This document shows positions 4,868 to 19,655 of a stretch of DNA of 64,000 nucleotides, piece by piece. Position 1 is the stretch's first letter. Every line of letters starts with the position of its first letter. Source of the stretch: Anaerolineae bacterium (GTDB taxonomy: Bacteria; Chloroflexota; Anaerolineae; Aggregatilineales; UBA2796); assembly GCA_019637615.1 (NCBI GenBank), contig JAHBVJ010000001.1:62001-126000 (forward strand). The letters are read 5' to 3'. The notes beneath the pieces were generated by a model, which saw nothing but the letters and a program-made list of their open reading frames with translations, was not told where the DNA came from and searched no databases. The position numbers and the translations under genes are program-made.

Positions 4868-5272
4868 ATGAGACTCACATCCCGTGGTGAATATGCACTT
4901 TTAGCCCTTGTTTATCTCGCCAGACAACCCGCCGACAGTTATGTGCGCGTCGAAACAATCGCAGCGGCGCAAGATATTCCGGCGAAGTTCTTAGAGCAGA
5001 TTTTACTGACGCTAAAACGTAACCAATTTTTGAGCAGCCTGAAAGGGCAGCACGGCGGTTATCGGCTGGCAAAGCCTTCCAACGCGATCACGCTGGCGGA
5101 AGTGCTACGCCTAGTGGATGGGCCACTCGCGCCGACTGAATCCGTGAGCTTGCATTATTACCGCTCTACGCCTATCGAGAAAGAACAAAAATTGGTCGGC
5201 GTGTTTACACAGGTGCGCGACTGCATCCTCGGCATTTTGGAGCACACGACCATCGCTGATTTAGCCACCTGA
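4868..5272 (+). CDS. Rrf2-family transcriptional regulator
   Basis: 134 aa, starting ATG 4868. The Rrf2 winged-helix signature is clear: [11 protein letters not shown] at the start, then [30 protein letters not shown]. Only one cysteine (in RDCILGIL) is present, so the three-Cys iron-sulfur site of IscR/NsrR members is absent. This resembles the cluster-free CymR branch, whose known role is repression of cysteine and sulfur genes together with CysK. Its stop overlaps the hemB stop by 12 bp in convergent orientation. The position next to the siroheme and sulfate genes makes a sulfur-control role plausible, but this is inferred from context only. Confidence 0.85.
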
Positions 5273-6253
5273 GCGCTGCTCGTCGCGCAGCCAACGCGCC
5301 GCGTCCTTGGCGTGATAGGTCAGAATGATGTCCGCACCCGCCCGCTTGATGCCCGTCAAGCTTTCCAACACGATACGACGCTCATCAATCCAGCCATTGG
5401 CAGCAGCGGCTTTGACCATGCTGTACTCGCCACTGACGTTGTAGGCGGCGAGGGGTAGATCGAACATCTCGCGCACGCGGCGCACGACATCCAGATAGGC
5501 CAAGGCTGGTTTCACCATCAACATGTCCGCGCCTTCCTCCACGTCAAGCTGCGCTTCCCGAAGGGCTTCCCGGATGTTGGCGGGATCCATCTGATAGCTG
5601 TGGCGATCTCCGAAACGCGGCGCACTCTCGGCGGCTTCGCGGAAGGGGCCATAGAACCCGCTGGCGTACTTGACGGCGTAGGATAGAATGCCAGTATCCT
5701 GATAACCCGTCGTGTCCAAGGCGGTGCGAATGGCGCTGACCATGCCATCCATCATGCCGCTCGGCGCGACGACATCCGCGCCCGCCCGCGCGTGAGAGAC
5801 GACCACACGTCCCAAGTAATCCAGAGTCTCGTCGTTGATCACTTTGCCGTCGCGCACGATGCCGCAATGTCCGTGATCGGTGTATTCGCACATGCAGACA
5901 TCGGTGATGACGACCATTTCTGGCACAGCATTTTTGATGGCGCGGATAGCCTGCTGGATAATGCCGGAGTCCGAGAAGTTTTCGCTGCCGACGGCATCTT
6001 TAACGGCGGGCAGGCCGAACAAGAGCACCGAAGGCACCCCTAAAGCGGCAACTGCGCGGGCTTCCGTCACAACCTGATCGATGGACAGATGATAGACACC
6101 GGGCATGGCGCTGATTTCTTCGCGCACATCACGCCCATGCACCACAAACAACGGGTAGACAAAATCGGATGGCGATAATGATGTTTCGCGCACCATGCGG
6201 CGGAGCGAACTGCTGGTACGTAAACGGCGCAAACGGGTGATCGGGAAGCTCAT
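5261..6253 (-). CDS. hemB: Delta-aminolevulinic acid dehydratase (porphobilinogen synthase)
   Basis: 330 aa. Condenses two 5-aminolevulinate molecules to porphobilinogen in cytosolic tetrapyrrole synthesis. The zinc-type cysteine cluster [14 protein letters not shown] is visible at about residues 118-131, as are the two substrate-binding lysines in [11 protein letters not shown] and [11 protein letters not shown]. Length is normal for the family. It is the last gene of the seven-gene minus-strand operon and its start overlaps hemD by 4 bp (ATGA). hemA/hemL, which feed 5-aminolevulinate into the pathway, are not in the window. Confidence 0.96.
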
Positions 6254-7023
6254 AACGGTTGAAACTCCTCAAGGGCTTGCAGCAGCCCCGCTATCGTATA
6301 GGTTGAGGCGATCACATCGACACGCAGACCGAGTGAGCGGGCGGCTTGCGCGGTGATCGGGCCGATGCAAGCTACTAGGGCACGGTTGGCAAGCGGGTAG
6401 GCTTCCGCACCCAACAACTGGACGAAATGGTGTACGGTCGATGCACTGGTGAAGGTCAACATATCAACGCCTGACCGTAGTTCGGCATAGGCGGAGGGAG
6501 AGGGCTGGCCTAACTGCGTCTGATATACGGGCACCGACTCGACCTGTGCGCCATGTGCGATCAACTGATCGACAAGGGTGGGGCGGACAGTTTCGGCGCG
6601 GAGCAGCAGGCAACATTGACCCGCCAGTGAGCCGCTGGCAAGCAGCGCGTCGGCTAGGGATTCGGCAACGTAGTCAGCGGGCACGAGGGCAACCTGTACC
6701 CTATTTTCCGCCAGCACCTGCGCGGTCGCTGATCCGATGGCGGCGACTTTGACCTGATTGAGCAAAGCTGGCGATAGATCATGCGAGGCGAGATGGTCAC
6801 ACACGATCCGCACCCCGTTGGCGCTGGTGAACACAACCCAATCAAACTGGCCTAGCTTGCGTATGACCTTTTCGAGGGCGGGGTTCGGGGTAATGGGAAC
6901 GATCTGGATGGTGGGGAACAGGATCGGAGATGCGCCACAGGCATGTAAGGCGGCGACGAAGCCGTCGGCCTGCGCATCCGCGCGCGTGATTACGATGCGT
7001 TTTCCGGCTAAGGGATGAGGCAT
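6250..7023 (-). CDS. hemD: Uroporphyrinogen-III synthase
   Basis: 257 aa. Cyclises hydroxymethylbilane with inversion of ring D to uroporphyrinogen III. The two-lobed HemD pattern is visible: [15 protein letters not shown] at the start, [11 protein letters not shown] in the first lobe and [13 protein letters not shown] in the second, then [16 protein letters not shown]. Sequence conservation in this family is weak, but the position between hemC (3 nt gap) and hemB (4-bp overlap) supports the call. It is the branch point metabolite producer for both siroheme and heme. Confidence 0.93.
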
Positions 7024-7026
7024 GAT

Positions 7027-8016
7027 TTATTCTCCCACGCGCAGCAGATCGCCCGCGCCGCGCCGGATAGCCTGTTCCGCCAGCGCCTCGCCCAAGTGGC
7101 GTGCCGTAGCGAGAATATGCTGGAACAAGACTTCGTTATGCGCCGTCACATCGCTATCGATCAGATCGATCTCGCTGTGGACGGTGATGCTGGTCGTGCC
7201 CGACACGCTCAGGACGCGCCCGGTCAGGGCAAGAGTAGCAGATCGGTGGTTGAAGCGCGCTAAAGCCGCGACGGGCAGATGACAGCCCGCATCCAGCACG
7301 GTGAGCAAGGCGCGTTCGGCCTCGACCTCGATGCGCGTCACCAAGTCATCGATGCGCGTGAGCACCCGTCGCAAGGCGGTGTCATCGGCGCGGCACTGCA
7401 CCGCCAAGGCTCCTTGCCCCGGCGCGGGCAGCATGACGTCCGGCGTCATGATCTCGGTGATGTGTCCAGTTAGCCCTAATCGATCTAGACCTGCGACGGC
7501 GAGGACAATGGCATCATAGGGACTGTCTGCCGCGAGCAGTTTTTCCAAGCGCGTCGGAACATTGCCCCGCAGCGGCAGAATCTCGACATCGGGACGGAGC
7601 GCTTTTAGTTGGGCAGAACGGCGCAAACTGCCCGTGCCGATTTTGGCACCGAGCGGGAGTTCATGCAGTTTCTGGCGCTGGCGGCTGATCAGCGCGTCGT
7701 AGGGCGAAGCGCGCTGCGGGACGGCACCGATCACGAACTCAGCGGGCATGAGCGTGGGCATGTCCTTCAGGCTGTGGACGGCGAGATCGATGTCGCCACG
7801 ACGCAAGGCCGCTTCTAGTTCGTCGGTGAAGGCACCCTTGCCGCCAAGTTCGGGCAAGGTAATGCTGAGATTGCGGTCGCCGCTGGTGGTGATGGGCGTG
7901 ATGACGACGGGCATCGAGGGCAGCACTTCGCGTAATCTGGCGGCGACAAATTCGGCTTGCCAGAGCGCGAGTTTACTGCCGCGTGTGCCAATCGACAGGT
8001 AGCGTTCGCTGATCAT
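7027..8016 (-). CDS. hemC: Hydroxymethylbilane synthase (porphobilinogen deaminase)
   Basis: 329 aa. Polymerises four porphobilinogen units to hydroxymethylbilane using a covalently bound dipyrromethane cofactor. Visible family marks are GTRGSKLALWQAEFV near the N-terminus, HSLKDMPT, RRSAQLKALRPD and APGQGALAVQCR. The cofactor cysteine is in DAGCHLPVAAL at about residue 245. The start overlaps the cobA stop by 4 bp, so translational coupling is likely. Confidence 0.96.
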   Translation of the reverse strand: MISERYLSIGTRGSKLALWQAEFVAARLREVLPSMPVVITPITTSGDRNLSITLPELGGKGAFTDELEAALRRGDIDLAVHSLKDMPTLMPAEFVIGAVPQRASPYDALISRQRQKLHELPLGAKIGTGSLRRSAQLKALRPDVEILPLRGNVPTRLEKLLAADSPYDAIVLAVAGLDRLGLTGHITEIMTPDVMLPAPGQGALAVQCRADDTALRRVLTRIDDLVTRIEVEAERALLTVLDAGCHLPVAALARFNHRSATLALTGRVLSVSGTTSITVHSEIDLIDSDVTAHNEVLFQHILATARHLGEALAEQAIRRGAGDLLRVGE

Positions 8017-8777
8017 CGGGTTTCCCCTTCGAACCAGCGCAGACCAGCACTACGCAAAGCGGATACCGCGCCGATCACAGTGGTGGCGGGCGGTTGCAGA
8101 TTGGCTTGCGCGACCTGTAACGGCAGAGTGGCTAAGGTAGCTTCGACCACGCGCTGATGGTGAGTGGTGCCCCACTCGATACAAACGGCGGGAGTGAGAG
8201 GATCGAGGCCGTGCGCGATCAGATGCGCCGTGATCGATTCCAAATGTCCGACACCCATCAGCAGCACCAGCGTGCCCATTTTGGCGATTTGCGCAAGGGC
8301 GGCGTAATTGAGGCTGCTCTCCGGTTTGGTGGAATCTTCGTGACCCGCGAACACAGTAAAAGCCGTTGCGAGATGGCGATGCGTGACGGGGATGCCCGCG
8401 TAGGCTGGCGCGGCGACTGCGCTGGAGACGCCGGGGATCACCACAAACGAAATGCCCGCCGCGTGACAAGCCAGCGCTTCTTCGCCACCACGCCCGAACA
8501 CAAACGGATCGCCCCCTTTGAGCCGCGCTACACACAAGCCCTGTTTGGCCTTGTCCACGATAAGCGCGTTGATCGCGTCTTGATCAAGGCGGTGTTTGGT
8601 GGGCAGCTTGCCAACGTCGATCATGTCGGCATCGGCGCGGGCTTCGGTCAGCAGTTCCGGCGCGATCAGGCGATCATACAGCACGACATCCGCCGATTGC
8701 AGCGCCTTCAAGCCCTTGACCGTGATCAGGTCGGGATCGCCGGGGCCAGCGCCAATGAGATAGACGGTGCCCGTCAT
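8013..8777 (-). CDS. cobA: Uroporphyrinogen-III C-methyltransferase
   Basis: 254 aa from ATG 8777, which overlaps the previous gene by 4 bp and places VYLIGAGPGDPDLIT at the N-terminus; an extension to 8846 would reach further into the upstream gene. SAM-dependent double methylation of uroporphyrinogen III to precorrin-2, the committed step to siroheme. Motifs seen: GAGPGDPDL, RLKGGDPFVFGRGGEE, and PGVSSAVAAPAYAGIPVTHR. It is a stand-alone SUMT, not fused to HemD or CysG. Confidence 0.95.
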   Translation of the reverse strand: MTGTVYLIGAGPGDPDLITVKGLKALQSADVVLYDRLIAPELLTEARADADMIDVGKLPTKHRLDQDAINALIVDKAKQGLCVARLKGGDPFVFGRGGEEALACHAAGISFVVIPGVSSAVAAPAYAGIPVTHRHLATAFTVFAGHEDSTKPESSLNYAALAQIAKMGTLVLLMGVGHLESITAHLIAHGLDPLTPAVCIEWGTTHHQRVVEATLATLPLQVAQANLQPPATTVIGAVSALRSAGLRWFEGETR

Positions 8778-10129
8778 TCCTGCACCTCCACACCGACCAA
8801 CTGCGTTAGGGCTTCGCTCATCCATAGGTTGCAGGGTTCGGGGCAAGGGAGGTCGTCAGTCGTACCGTCGAACCAAGACGGATGCAGCACACAGTCACCA
8901 CAGGTTTGCTCGATCAGTTCATGTTGTGTAGTGCTGGTGAGGTGGGCAAGCTGCCGGAACATGCCGACCTGCCGCGCCGTCACCTGAGCCAGATCAGCGA
9001 TGCGCAGCGTGCCATTACGCGCCGCGGCCCAGTCCGCGGTGAGGCCGGGATAAATCGTCTCGGTCACCGCTGGCAGCACCTCCAAGTCGCGGAGCGGTAC
9101 ACGCCACCCCCGTGCCAGATCACGCGAAGTCGCCAACGGACGAAAGTGCGGTGTTTCACGCATATGCTGGCGCAATTGATGCGGCGTGGTAAGCGGCAGT
9201 AAGTTCGCTGTGCCGGAATCATCGACGTGGCAAACGTTTGTTGGCGTGATGTGGAGTTCGCCAAGGCTGAATGAGTCACGCTTGGCGAAGATCGAGGCTG
9301 CAAAGCGCAGGAATTCGGCGTGCCCCGCCGTCGGGAAGCCGATCCATGCCGCCTCGGTCGGGACGGGTGAGTGGATGGGCGCGCCCGCTTCGAGCGCGAG
9401 ATCGAGGATTACCTGACCGAGCGAATCATCGACACCAACGGGATCGGTGTAAATCACGTCTCGGCCCTGAATATGACCGCGCGTTGCGCTGATTGGCAGT
9501 CCCAAGCGGGCGGGCACATCCTGCGTAACGTGCGAACCGAGCGCGACAAAGAAGGGCACGGCAACGATGATCGGCGCATCGGTGAGCGTGAAGATGGCTT
9601 CGATCTCCGGCGTGTCATCTAGATAGAGGGCGGCTACTTCCGCCGCGATCCCCGCCTGACGGAGCAGTTCGGCCTGCGTTTCGGTGGCTTGGCGGCTATC
9701 GGGGTTGCGCTTGGTGCTGTGCCCGATCAGCGCGACCGCCGCATGTTCGCCGCTGACGTTGGCGGCACGCAACCCCGCGATCACACGTTCCCGTACCACT
9801 TGCGCCAAGCGGGGATGCTCGCTCAGGGTGCGGGCATAGCGCATGGTGCGGCCTGCGGCTGATGTGAACGCGCCAGCTAACCTCATTTCGGCGGGGATGA
9901 CGGCACGGGTAAAAAAGCCCTGCGCGGTGAAGATAGGGATGATGGTGATGTCGTCCGCCGTGAGAGTGGCTAGTGCACGCGCAAAGGAGGGTAATTCCTT
10001 CCAGAAAGCGGCGGTAACTTCATCCGCAACTTGCAGCCGACGCAGCGCATCGACATGCGACCAGATCAGACCTGCTGTTTGCGGGCTGAGGTGTGAACCA
10101 TGCCCTGCCAATACGAGCGCGGTACGCAT
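8774..10129 (-). CDS. Sirohydrochlorin chelatase with C-terminal Fe-S (DR2241-like) domain
   Basis: 451 aa. The N-terminal 250 residues contain two CbiX-type lobes, each with a histidine motif (LAGHGSHLSP and LIGHSTKRNP). They are followed by about 200 residues ending in a cysteine-rich segment, CGDCVLHPSW with CPEPC 18 residues on, which fits the 4Fe-4S domain found in DR2241-like proteins. Role inferred: insertion of Fe2+ into sirohydrochlorin to make siroheme for the sulfite reductase encoded upstream. Cobalt as the metal is less likely because no cobalamin genes are near. It overlaps met8-type and cobA neighbours by 1 and 4 bp. Confidence 0.88.
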   Translation of the reverse strand: MRTALVLAGHGSHLSPQTAGLIWSHVDALRRLQVADEVTAAFWKELPSFARALATLTADDITIIPIFTAQGFFTRAVIPAEMRLAGAFTSAAGRTMRYARTLSEHPRLAQVVRERVIAGLRAANVSGEHAAVALIGHSTKRNPDSRQATETQAELLRQAGIAAEVAALYLDDTPEIEAIFTLTDAPIIVAVPFFVALGSHVTQDVPARLGLPISATRGHIQGRDVIYTDPVGVDDSLGQVILDLALEAGAPIHSPVPTEAAWIGFPTAGHAEFLRFAASIFAKRDSFSLGELHITPTNVCHVDDSGTANLLPLTTPHQLRQHMRETPHFRPLATSRDLARGWRVPLRDLEVLPAVTETIYPGLTADWAAARNGTLRIADLAQVTARQVGMFRQLAHLTSTTQHELIEQTCGDCVLHPSWFDGTTDDLPCPEPCNLWMSEALTQLVGVEVQE

Positions 10130-10794
10130 CAGGGCAGTGCTTTCTCTAGCATGGCGTCGAACATGGCGCGGGCGGCGGGTTCATCACCCCCGCGCAGCAG
10201 ATCGAGGATGGGCGACTCCAGCACGGCTCTCCACATGTCACGCCGATCCGTTTCTTCGCTAATTTTGTCGGTTACTTGCCGTCGCGCTTGATCCAACCAC
10301 GCCGCCAGCGTAGCGTATTCAGCGCCGATCAGGGTTTCTAACTTGGTGCGCAGATGCTTGCTCAGGGCGGGGGACGCACCATCGGTGCTGACACCGACGG
10401 TGATCACGCCGCGTTGGATGGCTGACATGGTGCTGAAATCGCGATCACCGTTCGCCTCTACTGCATCCGCCAACGCGCCGATCTTGTGCGCTTCGATCAC
10501 CACCTGCCGATTCACGGCGGGATCATTGGTGGCGGCGAAAACGAGCAGCGGGCGTAATTCGGTCAGCAAACCTGCGGCATAGGCTTGGCGGTGGACGGCG
10601 ATCTCACCGCGCATCGCCCGCCGAGACAAGGCATCGGTTAACGCCGGACTGATGACGATGATGTGCGCACCCGCTTCGAGCAGTCCGGTCACTTTGCGTT
10701 CGGCAACCGAACCACCGCCCACGATCACGCAGGATTTCTCCGCCACATCCAACAGAATCGGATAGCCGCGCGTCCGGCGGGTCGTCAATTTCAC
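10129..10794 (-). CDS. Precorrin-2 dehydrogenase (siroheme synthase N-domain, Met8/SirC type)
   Basis: 221 aa from GTG 10794, chosen because it forms a GTGA overlap with the sulfite reductase stop; the frame extends to 10857 inside that gene but has no reason to start there. NAD+-dependent oxidation of precorrin-2 to sirohydrochlorin. A Rossmann motif (VIVGGGSVAERK) appears at about residues 20-31, followed by VFAATNDPAVNRQV and DFSTMSAIQRGVITVGVSTDGASPALSKHLR-type family sequence. The chelatase function is supplied by the separate downstream gene. Confidence 0.93.
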   Translation of the reverse strand: MKLTTRRTRGYPILLDVAEKSCVIVGGGSVAERKVTGLLEAGAHIIVISPALTDALSRRAMRGEIAVHRQAYAAGLLTELRPLLVFAATNDPAVNRQVVIEAHKIGALADAVEANGDRDFSTMSAIQRGVITVGVSTDGASPALSKHLRTKLETLIGAEYATLAAWLDQARRQVTDKISEETDRRDMWRAVLESPILDLLRGGDEPAARAMFDAMLEKALP

Positions 10795-12461
10795 TTGGCT
10801 TGACTTTCGGCTTCTTGGACGATTGACCGCAATTTTTCTAGCCCGACACGGTAGCAAAAATCACCGAACGATTCGCCCGTCGCGCGTTCATCACGGAAGT
10901 AGGTGAAGACGGGGCGCATGGTGGGCGCTAACTGCGAGACAGGCATCAGATCGAGGAATTCCGCCGCGAGCCGCGTGCCGTTGGGATTGCCACCGATGAA
11001 TACTGTGTATTTGTTCAGCGAACGCCCGACGAAGGCGAGTTCCGCTACATAGGGGCGCGCACAACCATTGGGGCAACCCGTCATGCGGATCATGATTGGT
11101 TCGTTGGGAAGGCCGATCTCCGCTAACTGCACCTCGATCTCATCGAGCACATGCGGGAGGGCGCGTTCGGCTTCGGTGAGGGCGAGGCCACAGGTAGGCA
11201 GGGCGGGGCAAGCTAACCCGTAGCGACGGACGCCCGTCAATTCTTCGAGCGTGCGGATATGATGTTCGGCTAAGAGCGCGTTGATCGCCTCACGGTCTTC
11301 GGGGCGGATGTCCACGAGCAGGATATTTTGCTGCGCGGTCAGGCGCACGGGCAGTTGGTAGCGCTCGATGATGGTGCGCAGCCCCGTGCGGAGACGCAGG
11401 TCGCCTTGATCCAGAATGCGCCCGTTCTCGACGTAGACGCCAAGATACAGTTTGCCGTCACCCTGCTCTTGCCAGCCGAGATGATCGAGCACTTCGAAGG
11501 GCGGCATGGGCTGGACGGGTTGCAGCGGGAATGGCAGGCGGGATTGCAGCTCTTGGTGGAACTTCTCGACGCCCCACTCATGTAAAATGTACTTGAGGCG
11601 GGCATGTTTGCGGTTGCTGCGGTCGCCGTGATCGCGGTGGATTCCGACGATGGCCTTGACGGTTTCGATGGCTTGATCAGGCGCGATGAAGCCAATCTCG
11701 TCCGCGAGGCGCGGGAAAGTTTCTTCGTTGTTGTGAGTCATGCCCATCCCGCCGCCCGCCAGCAGGTTGAACCCGATCAACTGCTTGTCGTCATCGAAGA
11801 GCGCCACGAGACCGAGATCGTTCGAGTAAATGTCCACGCAGTTGTCGCCGGGGAAAGCGATGGCGATCTTGAATTTGCGCGGCAGATAGGTTTTGCCGTA
11901 GACGGGGTCTTCTTCGTCATCCACAATCGGTTCGCCATCGATCCAAATCTGGTGATAGGCTCTGGTGCGAGGCAGCAGTTCGTTGCTCAGTTGGGTGGCG
12001 AAGTCCTGTACGGCGGTGCGCTGCGGATCGCCCGTCGGCGCGGGACAAGCCATGACGTTGCGCACGACATCCCCGCACGCGCCAAAGGTGGTCACGAAGG
12101 CAAGGTTCAGCGCACGGATGGTGTCGCGCAGATCGCCTTTGATGACGCCGTGGAACTGGATGCCCTGCCGCGTGGTGATGCGCAGCGTTTCGTTGCCGAA
12201 CTGCGAGGCGATGTCGTCGTGCGTCAAATATTGGTCGGCGCTCAACTGTCCCGCTGGCAGCTTCGAACGAATCATGAACTGATAGTGTTTTTCGCCCTGC
12301 TTGCGGATGTCGCGATCTTCTTGCTGATAGGAGCCGTGAAACTTGATCAGCACTTGCCCCGCATCGCTGAGAAATGCATCACTATTCTCTAATTCTTGAT
12401 CCAACGGCCCGCGCAACCCGTTGCTGGCGAGCTTAACCGCCTCTACGTTTGCTTTACTCAT
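10791..12461 (-). CDS. sir: Siroheme-dependent (ferredoxin-type) sulfite reductase
   Basis: 556 aa from ATG 12461; an in-frame ATG at 12488 lies immediately next to the attenuator U-tract and is less likely. Reduces sulfite to sulfide (six electrons), with ferredoxin as probable donor since no flavoprotein subunit gene adjoins. Siroheme/4Fe-4S ligands are present as CX5C (CPALPTC, about residue 425) and CX3C (CPNGC, about residue 470). It also has the duplicated ferrite reductase folds with ITTRQGIQFHG and CGDVVRNVMACPAP. A nitrite reductase is the close alternative, but the surrounding sulfate genes and Cys leader favour sulfite. First structural gene of the operon. Confidence 0.92.
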   Translation of the reverse strand: MSKANVEAVKLASNGLRGPLDQELENSDAFLSDAGQVLIKFHGSYQQEDRDIRKQGEKHYQFMIRSKLPAGQLSADQYLTHDDIASQFGNETLRITTRQGIQFHGVIKGDLRDTIRALNLAFVTTFGACGDVVRNVMACPAPTGDPQRTAVQDFATQLSNELLPRTRAYHQIWIDGEPIVDDEEDPVYGKTYLPRKFKIAIAFPGDNCVDIYSNDLGLVALFDDDKQLIGFNLLAGGGMGMTHNNEETFPRLADEIGFIAPDQAIETVKAIVGIHRDHGDRSNRKHARLKYILHEWGVEKFHQELQSRLPFPLQPVQPMPPFEVLDHLGWQEQGDGKLYLGVYVENGRILDQGDLRLRTGLRTIIERYQLPVRLTAQQNILLVDIRPEDREAINALLAEHHIRTLEELTGVRRYGLACPALPTCGLALTEAERALPHVLDEIEVQLAEIGLPNEPIMIRMTGCPNGCARPYVAELAFVGRSLNKYTVFIGGNPNGTRLAAEFLDLMPVSQLAPTMRPVFTYFRDERATGESFGDFCYRVGLEKLRSIVQEAESQAK

Positions 12462-12488: not shown

Positions 12489-12515
12489 AAAAAAAGCTGA
12501 CCGGGTGGTCAGCTT
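12489..12515 (-). terminator. Attenuator terminator before the sulfite reductase operon
   Basis: On the minus strand a perfect 9-bp stem (AAGCTGACC / GGTCAGCTT) with loop ACCC is followed by seven T residues (12495-12489). It lies between the cysteine-rich leader ORF and the sulfite reductase start. Nothing upstream on this strand except the leader ORF needs terminating, so its role is read as conditional termination. Confidence 0.85.
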
Positions 12516-12549
12516 ATGCGTTTGCGTGGATGAAGTGTGACAGCGATGA

Positions 12550-12642
12550 TTACAAATGTTCCCGCAAGCCCTGATGACCCGGCATTAAGCAGCATGGCGT
12601 ACAACACATACAGGTCACAACTGCATTAAGAACGGTACACAT
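12550..12642 (-). CDS. Cysteine-rich leader peptide (30 aa) of the sulfite reductase/siroheme operon
   Basis: ATG 12642 to TAA 12550, 30 codons. Cysteine occurs at positions 2, 11, 13, 14, 17 and 18 (CMCCTPCC core), four as TGT and two as TGC. No clear Shine-Dalgarno is seen; a short leader or leaderless start is possible. Codons 21-25 contain GGTCA and GCTT (12579-12575 and 12569-12566), which complement the 5' arm AAGCTGACC of the terminator at 12489-12515 with a 5-nt bulge, a candidate antiterminator. Inferred role: ribosomes stalling at Cys codons when Cys-tRNA is scarce let the operon be transcribed. Too short for standard gene calling. Confidence 0.78.
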   Translation of the reverse strand: MCTVLNAVVTCMCCTPCCLMPGHQGLREHL

Positions 12643-12673
12643 GGGGCGAACAGGTGAATTCATCATAGCGGCT

Positions 12674-12891: not shown

Positions 12892-13005
12892 ATGGCAACG
12901 TTGATTTCCGTCCCATCCGCTTTTATACCAACCAACAACGGCTGTTGTTGTGCTTGTTGTATGTGTATGCCACGCATGGAGGCCGGCGGCGGAATGGTCG
13001 TGTAG
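12892..13005 (+). CDS. Cysteine-rich leader peptide (37 aa) of the cysH-cysC-sat operon
   Basis: ATG 12892 to TAG 13003-13005, 37 codons. Six cysteines lie at positions 18, 19, 20, 22, 23 and 25 (CCCACCMC), all TGT. The rest is unremarkable. Codons 31-33 contain GCCGG-c-GG (12982-12989), able to pair with CCCCGGC of the downstream terminator's 5' arm and loop, a seven-pair GC helix with one bulge. This segment begins 15 nt after the last Cys codon. Inferred role: cysteine-sensing ribosome-stalling leader for transcription attenuation of the sulfate reduction genes. Confidence 0.8.
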   Translation: MATLISVPSAFIPTNNGCCCACCMCMPRMEAGGGMVV

Positions 13006-13043
13006 TGAGACTGTGTATGTCCAGACATGATTAGACCTTTCTG

Positions 13044-13069
13044 AACCCCGGCTTGCAGCGGGGTTTTTT
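13044..13069 (+). terminator. Attenuator terminator before cysH
   Basis: Stem AACCCCG (13044-13050) / CGGGGTT (13059-13065) with an 8-nt loop and a run of six T (13064-13069). It lies between the Cys-rich leader ORF and the cysH ribosome binding site (AAGGAG, 13087-13092), with no other upstream gene on this strand. Confidence 0.85.
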
Positions 13070-13099: not shown

Positions 13100-13801
13100 G
13101 TGTCCACTGTGACAGCAGAGCAGATAACTGATTTGAACGCGGCATTCGAGAAGCAAGCACCACAAGACATCCTGCGCTGGGCAGTCGAGACGTATGGCAC
13201 TGGGCTTGCCTCGGTGACGAGCTTCCAGCCGACGGGCATCGTGATCTTGCATATGCTGCGCGAGATCGCGCCGGAAACGCCCGTGTTGACGCTGGACACG
13301 GGACTGCTGTTCCCAGAAACCTACGCGCTGATCGATGATCTGGAAGCGCGCTTCGACCTGCGGCTGACCCGTTTGCAACCTGAATTGACCGTGGAGCGGC
13401 AGGCCGAACAGTACGGCGCGGCGCTATGGGAACGCGAGCCGAATTTGTGCTGCGCGATGCGCAAAACCGCGCCACTTGACGCCGTGTTGGGGCAGTATCC
13501 GGCGTGGATCACAGGCTTGCGGCGAGATCAATCCGAAGGACGCGGCACGACGCCTATCATCAGTTGGGATCGCAAGCATGGTAATATAAAGTTGGCTCCA
13601 CTGGCAACTTGGACAGAAAGTATGGTGTGGACGTACATCCACGCCTACGAACTACCCTACAATGCACTTCATGACCAGAATTATCCCAGCATCGGCTGCT
13701 ACCCCTGCACCCGTGCCGTCGCCGCTGATGGCGACAAACGCGCAGGTCGATGGGTAGGTCATAACAAGACCGAATGCGGAATTCACGTTCAAAGCAATTA
13801 A
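13100..13801 (+). CDS. cysH: Adenylylsulfate (APS/PAPS) reductase, thioredoxin-type
   Basis: 233 aa from GTG 13100, with AAGGAG seven nt upstream. Reduces activated sulfate to sulfite. It has the PP-loop-like fold region with TSFQPTGIVILHML and LDTGLLFPET. The two cysteine pairs of the iron-sulfur APS-reductase type are present (NLCCAMRK and GCYPCTR), as is the C-terminal catalytic cysteine in ECGIH. The Fe-S cysteines argue for APS rather than PAPS as substrate. All five cysteines are encoded by TGC, unlike the TGT-rich leader. First gene of the plus-strand sulfate operon. Confidence 0.95.
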   Translation: MSTVTAEQITDLNAAFEKQAPQDILRWAVETYGTGLASVTSFQPTGIVILHMLREIAPETPVLTLDTGLLFPETYALIDDLEARFDLRLTRLQPELTVERQAEQYGAALWEREPNLCCAMRKTAPLDAVLGQYPAWITGLRRDQSEGRGTTPIISWDRKHGNIKLAPLATWTESMVWTYIHAYELPYNALHDQNYPSIGCYPCTRAVAADGDKRAGRWVGHNKTECGIHVQSN

Positions 13802-13828
13802 CTCAGCTAAGGGAAGAGGGACTAGACA

Positions 13829-14407
13829 GTGTCAATCAACGGGAATTATGGCAACGACGGCTACACTTTATGGCTCACGGGTCTTTCTGGCGCGGGCAAG
13901 ACGACCATCGCGCTGGCACTAGAGGCCAAACTGAAGGAACGCGGTGCGCGTGTCGAACGGCTGGACGGTGATGTCGTCCGCGAAGGCTTGACGCGTGATC
14001 TTGGCTTCAGCAAGGAAGACCGCGACAAAAACATCGAACGCGTAACGTTCGTCGCCAAACTGCTTTCGCGCAACGGCGTCGGCGTGATCGCCTCGTTTAT
14101 CTCGCCGTACCAAACCGCCCGCGACCTTGCCCGCCGCGAGACAACCAATTTCATCGAAGTGTACGTCAACGCTTCGCTGGATACCTGCATCCAGCGCGAT
14201 GTTAAGGGCATGTACGCCAAGGCTATCGCGGGCGAGATCAAGAACTTCACAGGCATCAGCGACCCGTATGAAGCGCCGGAAAACCCTGAACTGACCCTAA
14301 CCACCGATGCTGAACCTGTCGAAGAAAGCGTCGCCAAAGTATTGAATTACCTTGAAGCGCGTGGGTTGATCCAGCCCGCCGCTGTTAGCCTCGGAGAAGT
14401 TCGCTAA
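13829..14407 (+). CDS. cysC: Adenylylsulfate kinase
   Basis: 192 aa from GTG 13829. Phosphorylates APS to PAPS with ATP. P-loop LTGLSGAGKTTIA lies at about residues 13-25. RLDGDVVREGLTRDLGFSKEDRDKNIERV and SPYQTARD-type APS-binding sequence follow, then KNFTGISDPYEAPENPEL typical of the family. The stop overlaps the sat start by one base (TAATG). Its product PAPS is not strictly needed if CysH uses APS directly, so it may serve sulfotransfer or an alternative route. Confidence 0.95.
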   Translation: MSINGNYGNDGYTLWLTGLSGAGKTTIALALEAKLKERGARVERLDGDVVREGLTRDLGFSKEDRDKNIERVTFVAKLLSRNGVGVIASFISPYQTARDLARRETTNFIEVYVNASLDTCIQRDVKGMYAKAIAGEIKNFTGISDPYEAPENPELTLTTDAEPVEESVAKVLNYLEARGLIQPAAVSLGEVR

Positions 14408-15609
14408 TGACCTACGCAACCACTTTTCAACTAATCCGCGCTCACGGCGGTACCCTGATCAACCGCGTGTTGGCGGGTGAGGCGCGGGCTGAGGAATTGG
14501 GGCGCGCCGGCGGGTTGGAACGTATCGTCCTGAGCGAACTCAATCTGGCTGACCTTGAGATGATCGCGAATGGTGCGTTGAGTCCGCTGACGGGATACAT
14601 GACGCAAGCCGATTACACCAGCGTGGTACATGATATGCGCCTCACTAACGGGCTGCCGTTGACGATCCCTGTGACGCTGGCGGTGAGCGCCGAGCAAGCG
14701 GAGCGCATCCAGATCGGGCAGAAGGTGGCGCTGGTCGAGCAACGCGCCGATGGCGAACACATCCTCGCGACGCTGCACGTGAGCGACAAGTTCAGCTACG
14801 ACAAAGAGACTGAGGCGAAGGAAGTGTTCCGCACCACAGAGACGGCGCATCCGGGCGTGGCGCGGTTGTACCGTCAGGGCGAGGTGCTGCTCGGAGGATC
14901 GGTGTGGCTGGTGGAGTGGCCTCAGCGCGTGACTACAGAATTTGCTGATCTGCGGTATACCCCCGCGCAGACTCGCGAAATCTTCCTTGAGCGTCAATGG
15001 CGGCGCGTGGTCGGCTTCCAGACCCGCAACCCAATCCACCGCGCGCATGAATACATTCAGAAGACAGCGCTGGAAATCGTGGATGGTTTGCTCTTGCATC
15101 CGCTGGTAGGCGAGACGAAATCTGACGACATTTCGGCGGCGGTGCGTGTAGAAAGCTACAAGGCCATCGTGAACGCGTACTATCCGGCCTCGCGTGTGCT
15201 GCTCGGCGCGTTCCCTGCCGCGATGCGCTATGCTGGCCCGCGTGAAGCGATCTTCCACGCCATTGCCCGCAAGAATTATGGCTGCACGCACTTCATCGTC
15301 GGGCGTGACCATGCTGGCGTGGGCAAATATTATGGCTCTTACGATGCACATCACATCTTCGACAACTTCGCGCCGGACGAAATCGGGATCATGCCGTTGT
15401 TCTTCGAACACACCTTTTACTGCAAGAAGTGTGGCGGAGTCGTCAGCGCCAAGACCTGCCCGCATGACAGCACTGCGCATGTTGTCCTCAGTGGGACGCA
15501 AGTCCGCGAAATGCTTTCTCGCGGTGAGGCACTGCCCACCGAATTCACCCGCCCCGAAGTTGGGGCTATCCTTATGCGCGGCATTCAGCAGCGCGTCCTA
15601 GATAACTAG
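14407..15609 (+). CDS. sat: Sulfate adenylyltransferase (ATP sulfurylase)
   Basis: 400 aa. Activates sulfate with ATP to APS. The homo-oligomeric Sat type is shown by QTRNPIHRAHEY (residues about 205-216), VGRDHAGVGKYYGSYDAH and a zinc-binding CKKCGG...CPHD region. It is translationally coupled to cysC. The stop lies 12 nt before the third Cys-rich leader ORF. Confidence 0.96.
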   Translation: MTYATTFQLIRAHGGTLINRVLAGEARAEELGRAGGLERIVLSELNLADLEMIANGALSPLTGYMTQADYTSVVHDMRLTNGLPLTIPVTLAVSAEQAERIQIGQKVALVEQRADGEHILATLHVSDKFSYDKETEAKEVFRTTETAHPGVARLYRQGEVLLGGSVWLVEWPQRVTTEFADLRYTPAQTREIFLERQWRRVVGFQTRNPIHRAHEYIQKTALEIVDGLLLHPLVGETKSDDISAAVRVESYKAIVNAYYPASRVLLGAFPAAMRYAGPREAIFHAIARKNYGCTHFIVGRDHAGVGKYYGSYDAHHIFDNFAPDEIGIMPLFFEHTFYCKKCGGVVSAKTCPHDSTAHVVLSGTQVREMLSRGEALPTEFTRPEVGAILMRGIQQRVLDN

Positions 15610-15621
15610 AAGGACATGACC

Positions 15622-15702
15622 ATGCTATTCAACCCCATGTTGAGAATTGCTCGAGACTGCTTATGTAGCACCTTAGCGTACGGTCAGTGCTGTTGTCGCT
15701 GA
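15622..15702 (+). CDS. Cysteine-rich leader peptide (26 aa) before the sulfate transporter genes
   Basis: ATG 15622 to TGA 15700-15702, with a good ribosome binding site AGAAGGA ending 7 nt upstream. Cysteines are at positions 13, 15, 23, 24 and 25, the last three consecutive before the final Arg. The three consecutive Cys codons (15688-15696) form the loop and part of one arm of a strong hairpin (15682-15704), so a ribosome held there would melt it. It is placed between sat and the sulfate-binding protein gene, giving the transporter part of the operon its own cysteine check. Inferred regulatory, not functional, peptide. Confidence 0.72.
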   Translation: MLFNPMLRIARDCLCSTLAYGQCCCR

Positions 15703-15719
15703 CCTAACCGTTTTATTTT
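15680..15719 (+). terminator. Hairpin and U-rich tract overlapping the third Cys leader
   Basis: GGTCAGTG (15682-15689) pairs with CGCTGACC (15697-15704), one G-T pair, 7-nt loop. A U-rich run TTTTATTTT follows at 15711-15719 after a 6-nt gap. An alternative outer pairing ACGGT / ACCGT (15680-15684 / 15707-15711) brings the stem directly to the U-tract. Likely an internal attenuator before the transporter genes. Confidence 0.6.
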
Positions 15720-15769
15720 GCTCACATTCCAGACTAACTCGATAGCAAAACTCATCATTGGAGAAAATC

Positions 15770-16828
15770 ATGGTTCGCAAGCAACAACAATCACGCGTCA
15801 TACAGACCATCATCGCGATTTTGCTGGTCGCCGGTACGATTGCCACAACGATTGCCCCGCAGGTCAACGCACAGTCTAGCGAAGTTACGCTCACCCTAGC
15901 TGGTTATGCCGTCCCGCGTGAAGCATATGCCGAGATCATCCCCCTGTTCCAAGCCTACTGGGAAAAGGAAAAGGGGCAGAAAGTCACCTTCCAAGAGTCG
16001 TACATTGCTTCCGGCGCTCAATCACGCGCGGTGGTGGGTGGTTTTGAGGCGGATGTGGTGGCGCTCTCGATTGAGAGCGACGTAACGCGCATCGCGGACG
16101 CCAAGCTGATCACGAAGGATTGGAAAGGCAACGCGTACAAGGGTTTCGTGACGGATTCGGTGGCAGTGATCACCGTGCGGAAGGACAACCCGAAGGCCGT
16201 CAAGGATTGGGCGGACATCGCCAAAGAAGGCGTCGAAGTGATCACGCCCGATCCGGCGACCAGCGGCGGCGCACAGTGGAATCTGCTGGCGGCGTACGGC
16301 GCAGCCAAGCGCGGTCAGGTGGAAGGCGTGGAGAAGGGCGAGGAGCCAGCGCTGGAATTCCTCGGCAAGGTGATCGCCAACGTGAGCGTGTTCGACAAGG
16401 ACGGACGCGAAAGCTTCTTGACCTTCGAGCGCGGGATCGGTGACGCGGCGATCACCTACGAGAATGAAGCTTATGCTGGTCTGGATGCTGGTGGCGAGTT
16501 CGAGGTGATCTATCCGGCCTCCACAATCTTGATCGAGAACCCCGTCGCGGTGGTGGACGTGTATGCCGAGAAGCACGGCACGTTGGAAGTCGCGAATGCG
16601 TTCGTCAACTTCCTGTACTCGCCGGACGCGCAAGCCGTATTCGCCAAGAAGGGCTTCCGCCCCGTGGTCGCGGATGTGCTGAAGGATGAAGCGTTCACGG
16701 GCAAGTTCCCTGAGATCAAGGACTTGTTCACGATCGCGGAGTTCGATGGTTGGGGTGCCGTGCGCAAGAACTTGTTTGGTGAAGAAGGCAAGATCACCAA
16801 ACTGATCGCGGACATCAAGGGCAAGTAA
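15770..16828 (+). CDS. sbp: Sulfate ABC transporter, periplasmic/extracellular substrate-binding protein
   Basis: 352 aa from ATG 15770, preceded by GGAGA; an upstream TTG in frame at 15758 sits on that site and is rejected. A signal peptide (residues 8-33, ending VNA-QSS) leads into a mature protein with sulfate-binding family sequence: LTLAGYAVPREAYAEIIP, SGAQSRAVVGGFEADVVALS, and TPDPATSGGAQWNLLAAYGA. It captures sulfate for the CysTWA permease encoded downstream. A strong hairpin after the gene may stabilise its mRNA relative to the permease genes. Confidence 0.95.
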   Translation: MVRKQQQSRVIQTIIAILLVAGTIATTIAPQVNAQSSEVTLTLAGYAVPREAYAEIIPLFQAYWEKEKGQKVTFQESYIASGAQSRAVVGGFEADVVALSIESDVTRIADAKLITKDWKGNAYKGFVTDSVAVITVRKDNPKAVKDWADIAKEGVEVITPDPATSGGAQWNLLAAYGAAKRGQVEGVEKGEEPALEFLGKVIANVSVFDKDGRESFLTFERGIGDAAITYENEAYAGLDAGGEFEVIYPASTILIENPVAVVDVYAEKHGTLEVANAFVNFLYSPDAQAVFAKKGFRPVVADVLKDEAFTGKFPEIKDLFTIAEFDGWGAVRKNLFGEEGKITKLIADIKGK

Positions 16829-16848
16829 CACACTCCCTTGTTGATCCT

Positions 16849-16874
16849 GTAGGGATGTGCTGACACATCCCTAC
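16849..16874 (+). other. Intercistronic hairpin between sbp and cysT
   Basis: GTAGGGATGTG / CACATCCCTAC, a perfect 11-bp stem with a 4-nt loop and no U-tract. Typical of mRNA-stabilising or processing hairpins after a highly expressed binding-protein gene. Confidence 0.65.
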
Positions 16875-16904
16875 CTTGATAAACCCGATGTTGAAGGATT
16901 GTGC

Positions 16905-17777
16905 ATGACCGAATTGTCACTCTCGAGGCCAGTATCACAACCACAAACCACCAAGCCGCGCACCTCACTGCAAGCACCGTGGGGAAGGTGGGGATTGAGG
17001 ATTGCAGCGCTGAGTTATCTGGCGGCGTTCATCCTCGTGCCGATCTTCGTGGTGAACATAGAAGGCTTCCGCAACGGGATCGCTACCTTCTGGGGTGACG
17101 TGACGCGTCCCGTTGCCTTAAGCGCGATTGGCTTGTCGGTGTGGACGGCGGCGGTGATGGCGGTGGTTAACGCCGTGATGGGCGTGCTGACCGCGTATGT
17201 ACTGGTTTATTACAAATTCCCCGGCAAAGCACTATTTAATACACTGGTGGATCTGCCATTCGCGATCCCCGCGCTGGTGACGGGCGTGATGCTGGTGCTG
17301 TTGTACGGCCCGCAGACCGCCGTCGGCAGTTTTCTCGACAAAACTTTTCATTTCCGCGTGCTATTCGCACCGCCGGGAATCGTGCTGGCGCTGCTGTTCA
17401 TCAGCTTTCCGTTCGTGATTCGCACGGTGCAGCCCGTCCTCGTTGAACTGGATTTCAACCAGCAGGAAGCCGCCTACACGCTCGGCGCGTCCGAATGGAC
17501 GACGTTCCGGCGCGTGATCTTCCCAGCGATTCGTCCCGCATTGATCACGGGGACGCTGCTGAGTTTTGCCAGAGCGCTCGGTGAATTCGGCTCGATCATC
17601 GTGGTGGCGGGCAACGTGCCGATGAAGTCGCAGACCGCCGCCGTGTACATTTACGGACAGGTCGAGTCGGGCAATATGCAAGCTGCCAGCGCGGTATCGG
17701 TGGTGCTGCTATTCATCGCGTTCGGGATCACGCTGGTCGTCGATCTGGCGTTGAAACGAGGATGGAACCATGCGTGA
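16905..17777 (+). CDS. cysT: Sulfate ABC transporter permease CysT
   Basis: 290 aa from ATG 16905, with GAAGGA 8 nt upstream; the frame extends back to 16857 through the hairpin and is rejected. Six membrane segments are visible. The permease coupling EAA-like loop EAAYTLGASEWTTFRRVIFPAIRPALITG is followed by ARALGEFGSIIVVAGN, typical of CysT/CysU. It overlaps cysW by 8 bp. Confidence 0.95.
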   Translation: MTELSLSRPVSQPQTTKPRTSLQAPWGRWGLRIAALSYLAAFILVPIFVVNIEGFRNGIATFWGDVTRPVALSAIGLSVWTAAVMAVVNAVMGVLTAYVLVYYKFPGKALFNTLVDLPFAIPALVTGVMLVLLYGPQTAVGSFLDKTFHFRVLFAPPGIVLALLFISFPFVIRTVQPVLVELDFNQQEAAYTLGASEWTTFRRVIFPAIRPALITGTLLSFARALGEFGSIIVVAGNVPMKSQTAAVYIYGQVESGNMQAASAVSVVLLFIAFGITLVVDLALKRGWNHA

Positions 17778-18570
17778 GATTACCCCTCGTTCGCCAGTGG
17801 GCATTGCCCTGATTGTCATTATGCTCGGCTACGCGGGATTACTGCTGATCTCGCCGCTGGTCGCGATCCTGCAAGGGGCGTTCGCGAAAGGCATCACGCC
17901 GTTTCTCAATGCACTGACGCAACCTGATGTGATTCATGCGTTTCAGGTGACATTCTCGCTGACGTTCGGCGCAGTGGTGATCAATACGGTGTTCGGGTTG
18001 ATCGTGGCGTGGGTGCTGGTGCGGCACCGTTTCCCCGGCAAGCGAATCGTAGATGCGTTGGTGGATGCACCGTTCGTATTTTCGCCCGTGATCGCGGGGT
18101 ATGTGCTGATCGTGCTGTTCGGGCGCGGCGGGTGGTTCGAGCCGCAGCACTTCCAGATCGTATTCGCGTGGCCCGCGATGCTGCTCGGTACGGTGTTCGT
18201 GTCGCTGCCGTTCGTGATCCGCGAGGTGCAACCCGTGCTGGCGTCGCTGGCGCTGGAGCAAGAAGAAGCAGCGTATACGCTCGGCTCTAGCCCGTGGACG
18301 ACCTTCAGGCGGATCGTGCTGCCGCAAATCTGGCGCGGACTGCTGTACGGGATCGTGCTGACCATCGCCCGCGCCTTGGGCGAATTCGGTGCAGTGGCGG
18401 TGGCGGGCGGCGCGATTGAGCGTTTGACCGAGAGCGCCACGGTGTTCGTATTCCGCGCCAGTTTGGATCGTAATCCTATCGGCGCGTACAGCGTATCGAT
18501 TGTGTTGTGCCTGCTTTCTGTTGGCATTCTGACAGTGATGAGCTTACTTAGACGGCGCGCGGCGCGTTAA
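17770..18570 (+). CDS. cysW: Sulfate ABC transporter permease CysW
   Basis: 266 aa, start ATG 17770 inside the end of cysT. Six hydrophobic helices and the coupling loop EAAYTLGSSPWTTFRRIVLPQ are present, followed by ARALGEFGAVAVAGG. It forms the heteromeric sulfate channel with CysT. Confidence 0.95.
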   Translation: MREITPRSPVGIALIVIMLGYAGLLLISPLVAILQGAFAKGITPFLNALTQPDVIHAFQVTFSLTFGAVVINTVFGLIVAWVLVRHRFPGKRIVDALVDAPFVFSPVIAGYVLIVLFGRGGWFEPQHFQIVFAWPAMLLGTVFVSLPFVIREVQPVLASLALEQEEAAYTLGSSPWTTFRRIVLPQIWRGLLYGIVLTIARALGEFGAVAVAGGAIERLTESATVFVFRASLDRNPIGAYSVSIVLCLLSVGILTVMSLLRRRAAR

Positions 18571-18587
18571 TTTGGGAGAAAGTTTGC

Positions 18588-19655
18588 ATGTCCATCGTAC
18601 TTGATAACGTGACCAAAGCGTATGGGAAGCAAGTCGTGGTGAAGGACTTGTCGCTAGAAATCAAAGCGGGCGAGTTGTTCGTGCTGCTGGGTGCGAGTGG
18701 CAGCGGCAAGAGTACACTACTGCGCTTGATCGCGGGGTTGATGCCGACCGACAGCGGGCGAATCTGGCTGCATGACCGCGATGTGACTACACTGCCGCCA
18801 CAGCAGCGGAATACGGGCTTCGTGTTCCAGAATTATTCACTGTTCCAGCATATGAGTCTCGCGGAGAATATCGAATTTGCATTGAGCATCCGACACGCAC
18901 CGCGCAAGGAACGTGAGCAGCGCGTTCAGGAACTGCTGCATTTGATCGGGATGGACGGACTCGGCAGCCGCAAGCCGTCGCAGATTTCGGGCGGGCAGCA
19001 GCAGCGGGCGGCGTTGGCACGGGCGCTGGCACATCAGCCGGAAGTCTTGTTGCTGGACGAGCCATTCGGCGCGTTGGACGCCAAAATTCGCGGACAACTG
19101 CGGCAAAATCTACGCGAGATTCAGCGGCAACTCGGCGTGACGACCATCATGGTCACGCATGATCAGGACGAGGCTTTCGAGTTGGCTGACCGCATCGGCA
19201 TCATCGAGCAAGGAACCCTGTTGGAAGTTGGGACGCCGGACGAGTTATACCGCCGTCCGCAGCACCGCTTCACGGCGACGTTCCTCGGCACGGCGAACCT
19301 GTTCAACGCGGTGCGCAACAGCCATCAGGTGTACTGGGGCGATGTCAAGTTAGAGGCTCCGCCTGCTACCGAGCATTTGTCGAACCAAGATGTGCTGATC
19401 CTTTCGCGCCCGGAAGAAGTTGACCTTGCCCCGCAACGTGATGCCCTGCGCGGGCAAGTGCTCGGACGTGGCGTAATCGAGGGGCGGACATTCGCGGGAT
19501 CGGCGGAAAAGCTGGCGGTGCGGCTGAAGGAGCAGAACGGCGTCAACCTGCAAGTGCTGCTCGACGCCGAAAAGGCGAATTCGAACGCGCTGGAGATCGG
19601 ACACGAAGTGTGGGTCGGATTGAAGCACTTCCATCTGATGGCGCAGCAGAATTAA
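18588..19655 (+). CDS. cysA: Sulfate ABC transporter ATP-binding protein
   Basis: 355 aa, ATG 18588 preceded by GGGAGAAAG. ATPase of the sulfate importer: Walker A GASGSGKST at about residues 36-44, signature ISGGQQQRAALARALA, Walker B VLLLDEPFGALD, and H-loop MVTHDQDEA. A C-terminal TOBE-like region (about 270-355) is present. It ends the plus-strand sulfate operon; a small hairpin without U-tract follows at 19681-19704. Confidence 0.96.
   Translation: MSIVLDNVTKAYGKQVVVKDLSLEIKAGELFVLLGASGSGKSTLLRLIAGLMPTDSGRIWLHDRDVTTLPPQQRNTGFVFQNYSLFQHMSLAENIEFALSIRHAPRKEREQRVQELLHLIGMDGLGSRKPSQISGGQQQRAALARALAHQPEVLLLDEPFGALDAKIRGQLRQNLREIQRQLGVTTIMVTHDQDEAFELADRIGIIEQGTLLEVGTPDELYRRPQHRFTATFLGTANLFNAVRNSHQVYWGDVKLEAPPATEHLSNQDVLILSRPEEVDLAPQRDALRGQVLGRGVIEGRTFAGSAEKLAVRLKEQNGVNLQVLLDAEKANSNALEIGHEVWVGLKHFHLMAQQN

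Follow-up and report, generated by a model that had tools for sequence, protein, structure and literature searches.

The window, a stretch of 64,000 nucleotides, comes from a genome assembled to 8.2 Mb in 76 contigs (85% complete, 7% contamination). It carries the sulfite reductase gene sir, with siroheme and heme genes behind it on the minus strand, and a sulfate cluster that begins with cysH and runs away from sir on the plus strand. The two permease-like ORFs of the sulfate cluster are named by position and translation alone. Many sir homologues align only from residue 9–10, so that the start of the gene is probably 12461 rather than 12488. The intergenic region holds a short ORF rich in Cys codons before each of the two gene sets, each with its own terminator signal. 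The leader before sir had been described in the original prediction; the second, which lies 250 bp off on the opposite strand before the cysH genes, had been missed. The features are collected in Table 1.

Table 1. Genes and leader features of the window, and loci that carry particular leader types.
Feature	Position in the window, or loci	Strand	Basis or remark
sir, sulfite reductase hemoprotein	10791..12461 (longest ORF to 12488)	minus	PF01077/PF03460; NF010029 above cut-off
CysG-N-type dehydrogenase, CbiX-type chelatase, cobA, hemC, hemD, hemB, closely packed behind sir	5261..10857	minus	
cysH, cysC, sat, sulfate-binding protein, two permease-like ORFs, ABC ATPase	13100..19655	plus	divergent from sir
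sir leader ORF MCTVLNAVVTCMCCTPCCLMPGHQGLREHL, 30 codons, six Cys codons	12550..12642	minus	read from sequence; counterparts in relatives
Clustered Cys codons 11, 13, 14, 17, 18 of the sir leader	12589..12612	minus	
Predicted 5' half of the sir antiterminator, GGGT and TCAG	12571..12580	minus	fold prediction; not above shuffles
Predicted intrinsic terminator before sir, 9-bp hairpin and T tract	12489..12515	minus	sequence signal
cysH leader ORF MATLISVPSAFIPTNNGCCCACCMCMPRMEAGGGMVV, 37 codons plus stop, Cys codons 18, 19, 20, 22, 23, 25	12892..13005	plus	
Hairpin CAACAAC-GGCT-GTTGTTG, seven pairs, overlapping the first Cys codons of the cysH leader	12933..12950	plus	
Predicted antiterminator of the cysH leader	12978..13058	plus	fold prediction
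Predicted intrinsic terminator before cysH	13043..13069	plus	sequence signal
Tandem leaders before sir	L040, L042, L043, L046, L096, L099, L100, L102, L103		
Tandem leaders before cysH	L078, L081-L083, L086, L088, L090, L147-L150, L155, L160, L164-L169		
Cys leader before adjacent cysK-cysE	L207, L206, L205		
Leaders with GR-stop ending	L212, L213, L217, L218, L222, L223, L225, L227, L233, L234		

The sir leader has the 30 codons and six Cys codons that were first reported for it, the one Cys codon outside the cluster being codon 2. An in-frame ATG at 12666 is a possible alternative start that would lengthen the ORF to 38 codons. A weak promoter-like TTGTAA-17-TAGGAT was seen by eye ahead of this ATG; the promoter scan gave no candidate on the minus strand. 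The 9-bp hairpin and seven T that were said to stand directly before sir are likewise there: the hairpin reads AAGCTGACC-ACCC-GGTCAGCTT (12515..12494, dG −13.9), and the T tract occupies 12495..12489, with two of its T in the stem. The 671-bp stretch with this hairpin contains three terminator-like sites vs. 0.6 in shuffles. The antiterminator fared less well. The proposed complementarity of GGTCA...GCTT to AAGCTGACC is present, but the predicted minimum-energy partner of the terminator arm is a different one, GGGT with ACCC of the loop plus TCAG with CTGA of the arm. Since the pairing of the 5' arm (0.49 vs. 0.52 in shuffles, i.e., no excess) is indistinguishable from that of shuffled sequence, the exact antiterminator of the original prediction is unproven.

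According to the fold predictions, a ribosome placed at codon 13, 14, or 17 allows a sir antiterminator with a dG between −16.8 and −17.7 kcal/mol, which is already lost once the ribosome is at the last Cys codon (18), as it is at the stop. It is predicted only before the 3' arm of the terminator has been made. In the completed leader RNA the terminator is preferred at all ribosome positions tried, so that only a kinetic switch would be possible there. The arm pairing climbs again six codons beyond the last Cys. Judged by its predicted folds, the sir leader is the less convincing of the two Cys leaders of the window.

The cysH leader, with six Cys within eight codons, is predicted to be a clear case of a switch that depends on ribosome position, far better than the sir leader. 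With the A site on Cys codons 18–25, the complete leader RNA reaches its minimum energy in the antiterminator fold (dG −33.0 to −42.8). Among the positions tried, the terminator fold wins from codon 27 onward, two codons after the last Cys. The arm pairing has a rank of 0.07 against shuffles. The small hairpin over the first Cys codons may serve as a polymerase pause or a protector hairpin, which is a guess. The leader has a counterpart (L146) in a genome of the same genus, G007.

Conservation of the ORF and its Cys codons in relatives had been set as a test beforehand, and it was found. The terms order and class and the genus and family numbers used here are labels of the sequence search. The order search for sir covered 154 genomes, of which 70 had a match and 20 a Sir-type gene (identity cut-off 44%, matches below 150 bits being dropped); the locus of G504 is cut by a contig end and was left out of the count. 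L101, whose contig stops inside the gene, was dropped as well. For automatic detection, a leader unit had to lie on the sense strand in the 500 nt before the gene and to combine a short ORF having three or more Cys in ten codons with an intrinsic terminator signal behind it; these thresholds were fixed only after a first look at the data. Such a unit stands before sir in all 19 order genomes with upstream sequence, and 14 of the 19 regions pass a stricter requirement of four Cys in ten codons. The detector fired on 5 of 2212 control segments taken from the same loci and the window (these segments overlap, and the five represent three distinct places), on the antisense strand of one of the 19 sir regions, and on 1.1% of 380 shuffles. 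The searches were made mainly before cysteine genes, and it is therefore from the control segments alone that the absence of units elsewhere can be judged.

These counts bear on the simplest alternative, namely that the Cys ORFs arose by chance and stand before terminators that mark ordinary ends of transcripts. Intergenic terminators are common, and the antiterminator of the sir leader does not rise above shuffles, both of which would fit. However, chance would have to account for 19 of 19 regions at sir against the handful of control and antisense hits, and we find this very improbable. In the window the intergenic region is divergent, hence neither terminator ends an upstream gene.

For cysH, 58 loci of at least 54% identity were fetched, the cut-off for listing being 40% with the same limit of 150 bits. 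Six repeats of genomes already counted were dropped, which left 52 distinct loci; they are a sample made up of the best loci of the class sample and of 30 chosen genomes. The leader is present at 31 of the 52 loci, at 30 by the detector and at L146 by eye, as the detector does not accept a terminator loop of that width. In ten further cases cysH is internal to a cluster that has a leader on its first gene (six behind sir, four behind the sulfate ABC genes). The remaining 11 loci have no leader; one of them is in G010, a genome that does have a leader before its sir. Several of the leaderless genes have an open frame close by and may be internal genes.

The spacing within the units is narrow: in each of 77 units the T tract lies 41–76 nt past the stop codon of the ORF, and the detector permitted far more. 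Within eight groups of related leaders, amino-acid replacements occur in 11 of 41 Cys columns vs. 102 of 175 other columns (Fisher p 0.0004), a comparison that is only supporting since the leaders had been picked for Cys. Between genera little is shared beyond the Cys clusters; the length, the spacing of Cys, and the remainder of the peptide differ.

A series of two full units, in which both ORFs have a terminator of their own, is found in nine of the 19 sir regions (genera g8, g23, g244, g11, and g254) and at 19 of the 52 cysH loci (g13, g15, g11, g255, and g4). At least two further loci, L075 and L079, are tandem by eye, the second terminator having been missed by the detector. The paired ORFs are not copies of one another. 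Alternatively, the products of the small ORFs might themselves be functional as Cys-rich peptides, such as carriers of metal or sulfur, with terminators that just end transcripts; the conserved presence and Cys content of the ORFs would fit this. Such peptides would hardly be expected to share so little between genera outside the Cys clusters or to differ within one tandem pair, and we hold this explanation to be as improbable as chance.

The pairing potential of the terminators was assessed in 78 units as the strength with which the 5' arm pairs to RNA further upstream while the 3' arm has yet to be made, the ribosome covering 14 nt from the A site on. When the ribosome sits on the Cys codons, the arm pairs at a mean of 0.73, as against 0.55 in shuffles; with the ribosome at the stop the mean is 0.30. 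Less RNA is free at the stop, so that the contrast between stall and stop is partly automatic. Followed codon by codon, the pairing stays near 0.75 across the Cys cluster, is 0.63 four codons later, and 0.32 seven codons later. It exceeds shuffles in 70 of 78 units, with a rank of 0.05 or better in 35 of them. Of the 32 groups into which the units fall by genus, gene, and position, 29 lie above shuffles (Wilcoxon p about 1e-7). Eight units and three groups fail to do so, the worst being the downstream sir units of g8 with a rank of 0.82.

We propose that the leaders before sir and cysH are ribosome-mediated transcription attenuators that sense charged Cys-tRNA, which, on the strength of conservation and modelled pairing taken together, is very probably the case. 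The leader ORF would be translated by a ribosome trailing RNA polymerase. When Cys-tRNA is scarce, the ribosome would stall on the Cys codons and the RNA just downstream would stay free, pair with the 5' arm of the terminator, and let transcription continue into the genes. With plenty of cysteine, the ribosome would advance a few codons and cover the pairing RNA; the terminator would then form and transcription would stop. Two units in series would multiply two termination steps and thus give a tighter shut-off.

Cys-codon ORFs could also act through translation, either by coupling or by a stall that exposes or hides the next start site, the terminators being incidental. Polycysteine short ORFs were predicted before mycobacterial cys operons, where, as far as the available portion of PMC1262725 goes, no conserved terminators were found. 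They are said to regulate downstream translation (Canestrari 2020, as cited in the accessible parts of PMC9031893 and PMC9094748). The leaders described here share with these the short ORFs with Cys runs before cysteine genes; unlike the mycobacterial form, as those excerpts present it, they have a terminator signal behind the ORF, which holds for all 19 sir regions of the order. A second point in favour of translation comes from family f43 of the same class (L048, L049, and L052), where Cys-run ORFs end 187–290 nt before sir. In all three of these Sir-type loci the ORF nearest sir has Cys codons in or next to its last codons and no evident terminator follows, so that f43 resembles more closely the terminator-free arrangement reported, in the portions available, for mycobacteria. 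Within the order, the constant terminator signal and the excess pairing of its 5' arm with upstream RNA argue against a purely translational effect, which we regard as improbable there, if somewhat less so than chance or a functional peptide. Attenuation at the terminator thus remains our preferred reading for the order.

Outside the order but within the class, one of nine Sir-type loci (L050) has a unit within 500 nt; looking wider, L048 has a Cys ORF at −633..−510 and a terminator at −458. For other classes, 29 of 55 strongly matching genomes were fetched, and none of the 28 Sir loci with enough upstream sequence has a unit within 500 nt. The same is true of 21 further named loci of at least 44% identity from Ktedonobacteria, cyanobacteria, and others. 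A spread of the leaders through the phylum is not seen in the loci sampled.

Leaders before other genes were sought in gene-led searches, mainly before cysteine genes, so that those at different genes would be missed. A scan of the window's genome for a paired-Cys-codon pattern gave 511 matches vs. 216 for the reversed pattern; it cannot name a regulon and was replaced as too unspecific. The window's genome has a third leader (SCMCTC, with a terminator) before cysK (L207, contig C20), with cysE 33 nt behind. The cysK-cysE pair of G117 likewise has a Cys leader, and that of G010 has a leader of two Cys codons with a terminator recognised by eye only. Among 12 strong matches to sulfate-binding-protein genes, six have a unit of their own (four g8 genomes, G008, and G009), four belong to a cluster of cysH or sir, and in the other two a Cys-rich ORF is present for which no terminator was detected.

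The cysK-like genes present a more varied picture. Besides the three cysK-cysE loci just named, the 25 loci of this kind that were inspected include ten, one of them in the window's genome (L234), at which the leader ends in Cys...(Q/R/P)GR-stop and a hairpin is predicted across the last Cys codon. The arms of this hairpin vary by species, as seen by eye in L212, L223, and L233 vs. the rest. A downstream CGTCCC pairs 8/8 with a GGGRCG stretch in eight of these ten loci, L217 and L223 failing to do so; shuffles reproduce the pairing in 4 to 29 of 200 trials, and it is suggestive only. At three loci (L214-L216) the Cys codons form an unbroken run of five or six; in L214 and L216, from two g13 genomes, a short ORF with six consecutive Cys codons precedes the gene. 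Nine of the 25 loci have no leader.

Curated Rfam families (T-box, riboswitches, and others) were considered as an explanation and gave no match at the leaders. The covariance models had no match on the window at gathering scores, and in 16 leader-bearing loci at E ≤ 0.5 they returned tRNA, SAM-I/IV, and two sub-threshold matches, none of them at leaders. The SAM-I/IV riboswitch match (L206:626-747, minus strand) is above the Rfam gathering score and lies near the cysK-cysE pair of G117.

It had also been suggested that cysteine status gates tetrapyrrole synthesis. Control of the heme genes is possible in the window, as the genes up to hemB are closely packed and a single hemB was found in the assembly, which is 85% complete. 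The linkage of sir to hem genes is seen in the window, in G007 (sir-cbiX-cobA...hemC-hemD-hemB), and partly in G009 (hemC), and is absent from the regions of the eight others of ten relatives examined, some of which are short. The suggestion can therefore stand for the surroundings of the window, that is, for the genus and in part for one family member; there, going by gene order, cysteine may control heme genes, and this is not a general feature.

Attenuation of this type is itself known. The trp, his, and ilv leaders carry codons for the end product in a short ORF, with an antiterminator that competes with an intrinsic terminator (described in the accessible text of PMC1183508), and a ribosome-mediated attenuator of ilvB1 is described for mycobacteria in what is available of PMC13236596. 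The predicted folds of the present leaders follow the same plan; they differ from trp, his, and ilv in that the codons are Cys codons, the genes serve sulfate uptake and reduction and cysteine synthesis, and there are often two units in series. Another described system of this kind is the uORFC-8-2 motif of Rhodobacterales, a Cys-codon uORF with a U-run terminator before cysS for which ribosome-mediated attenuation was proposed (PMC8632094). As given in the accessible portion of that article, it has two Cys codons in a conserved two-stem RNA, occurs exclusively before cysS, and belongs to Alphaproteobacteria, whereas the leaders reported here mostly have clusters of at least three Cys codons, precede biosynthetic genes (sir and cysH in the window), and belong to Chloroflexota. 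Salmonella mgtCBR has two short ORFs with attenuators in one leader mRNA, which sense ATP and proline; its own authors call it a 'singular example' in the available text of PMC3641672. Unlike mgtCBR, as described there, with its two different signals, both tandem units here carry Cys codons.

In the part of PMC4833913 that is accessible, Chloroflexi are mentioned only as a group with too few genomes, and the available part of PMC2965389 contains no cysteine leader. The open-access papers searched yielded no report of Cys leaders in Chloroflexota or of tandem units that read the same amino acid. What is unusual is the tandem arrangement of units for the same amino acid, and the phylum.

The broader reading, for which we put the chances at about even, is that the order runs its sulfate-to-cysteine genes by Cys attenuators, that many species stack two of them and so sharpen the response, and that near the window the same control also gates siroheme and heme synthesis. 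One class appears to contain both the terminator and the terminator-free form of Cys leader. If the proposal is true, attenuation by leader peptides and terminators would extend to the cysteine-synthesis genes of another phylum, the 78 leaders would be a natural set for learning which features matter, and serial attenuators for the same signal could be compared in gain with single ones from sister species.
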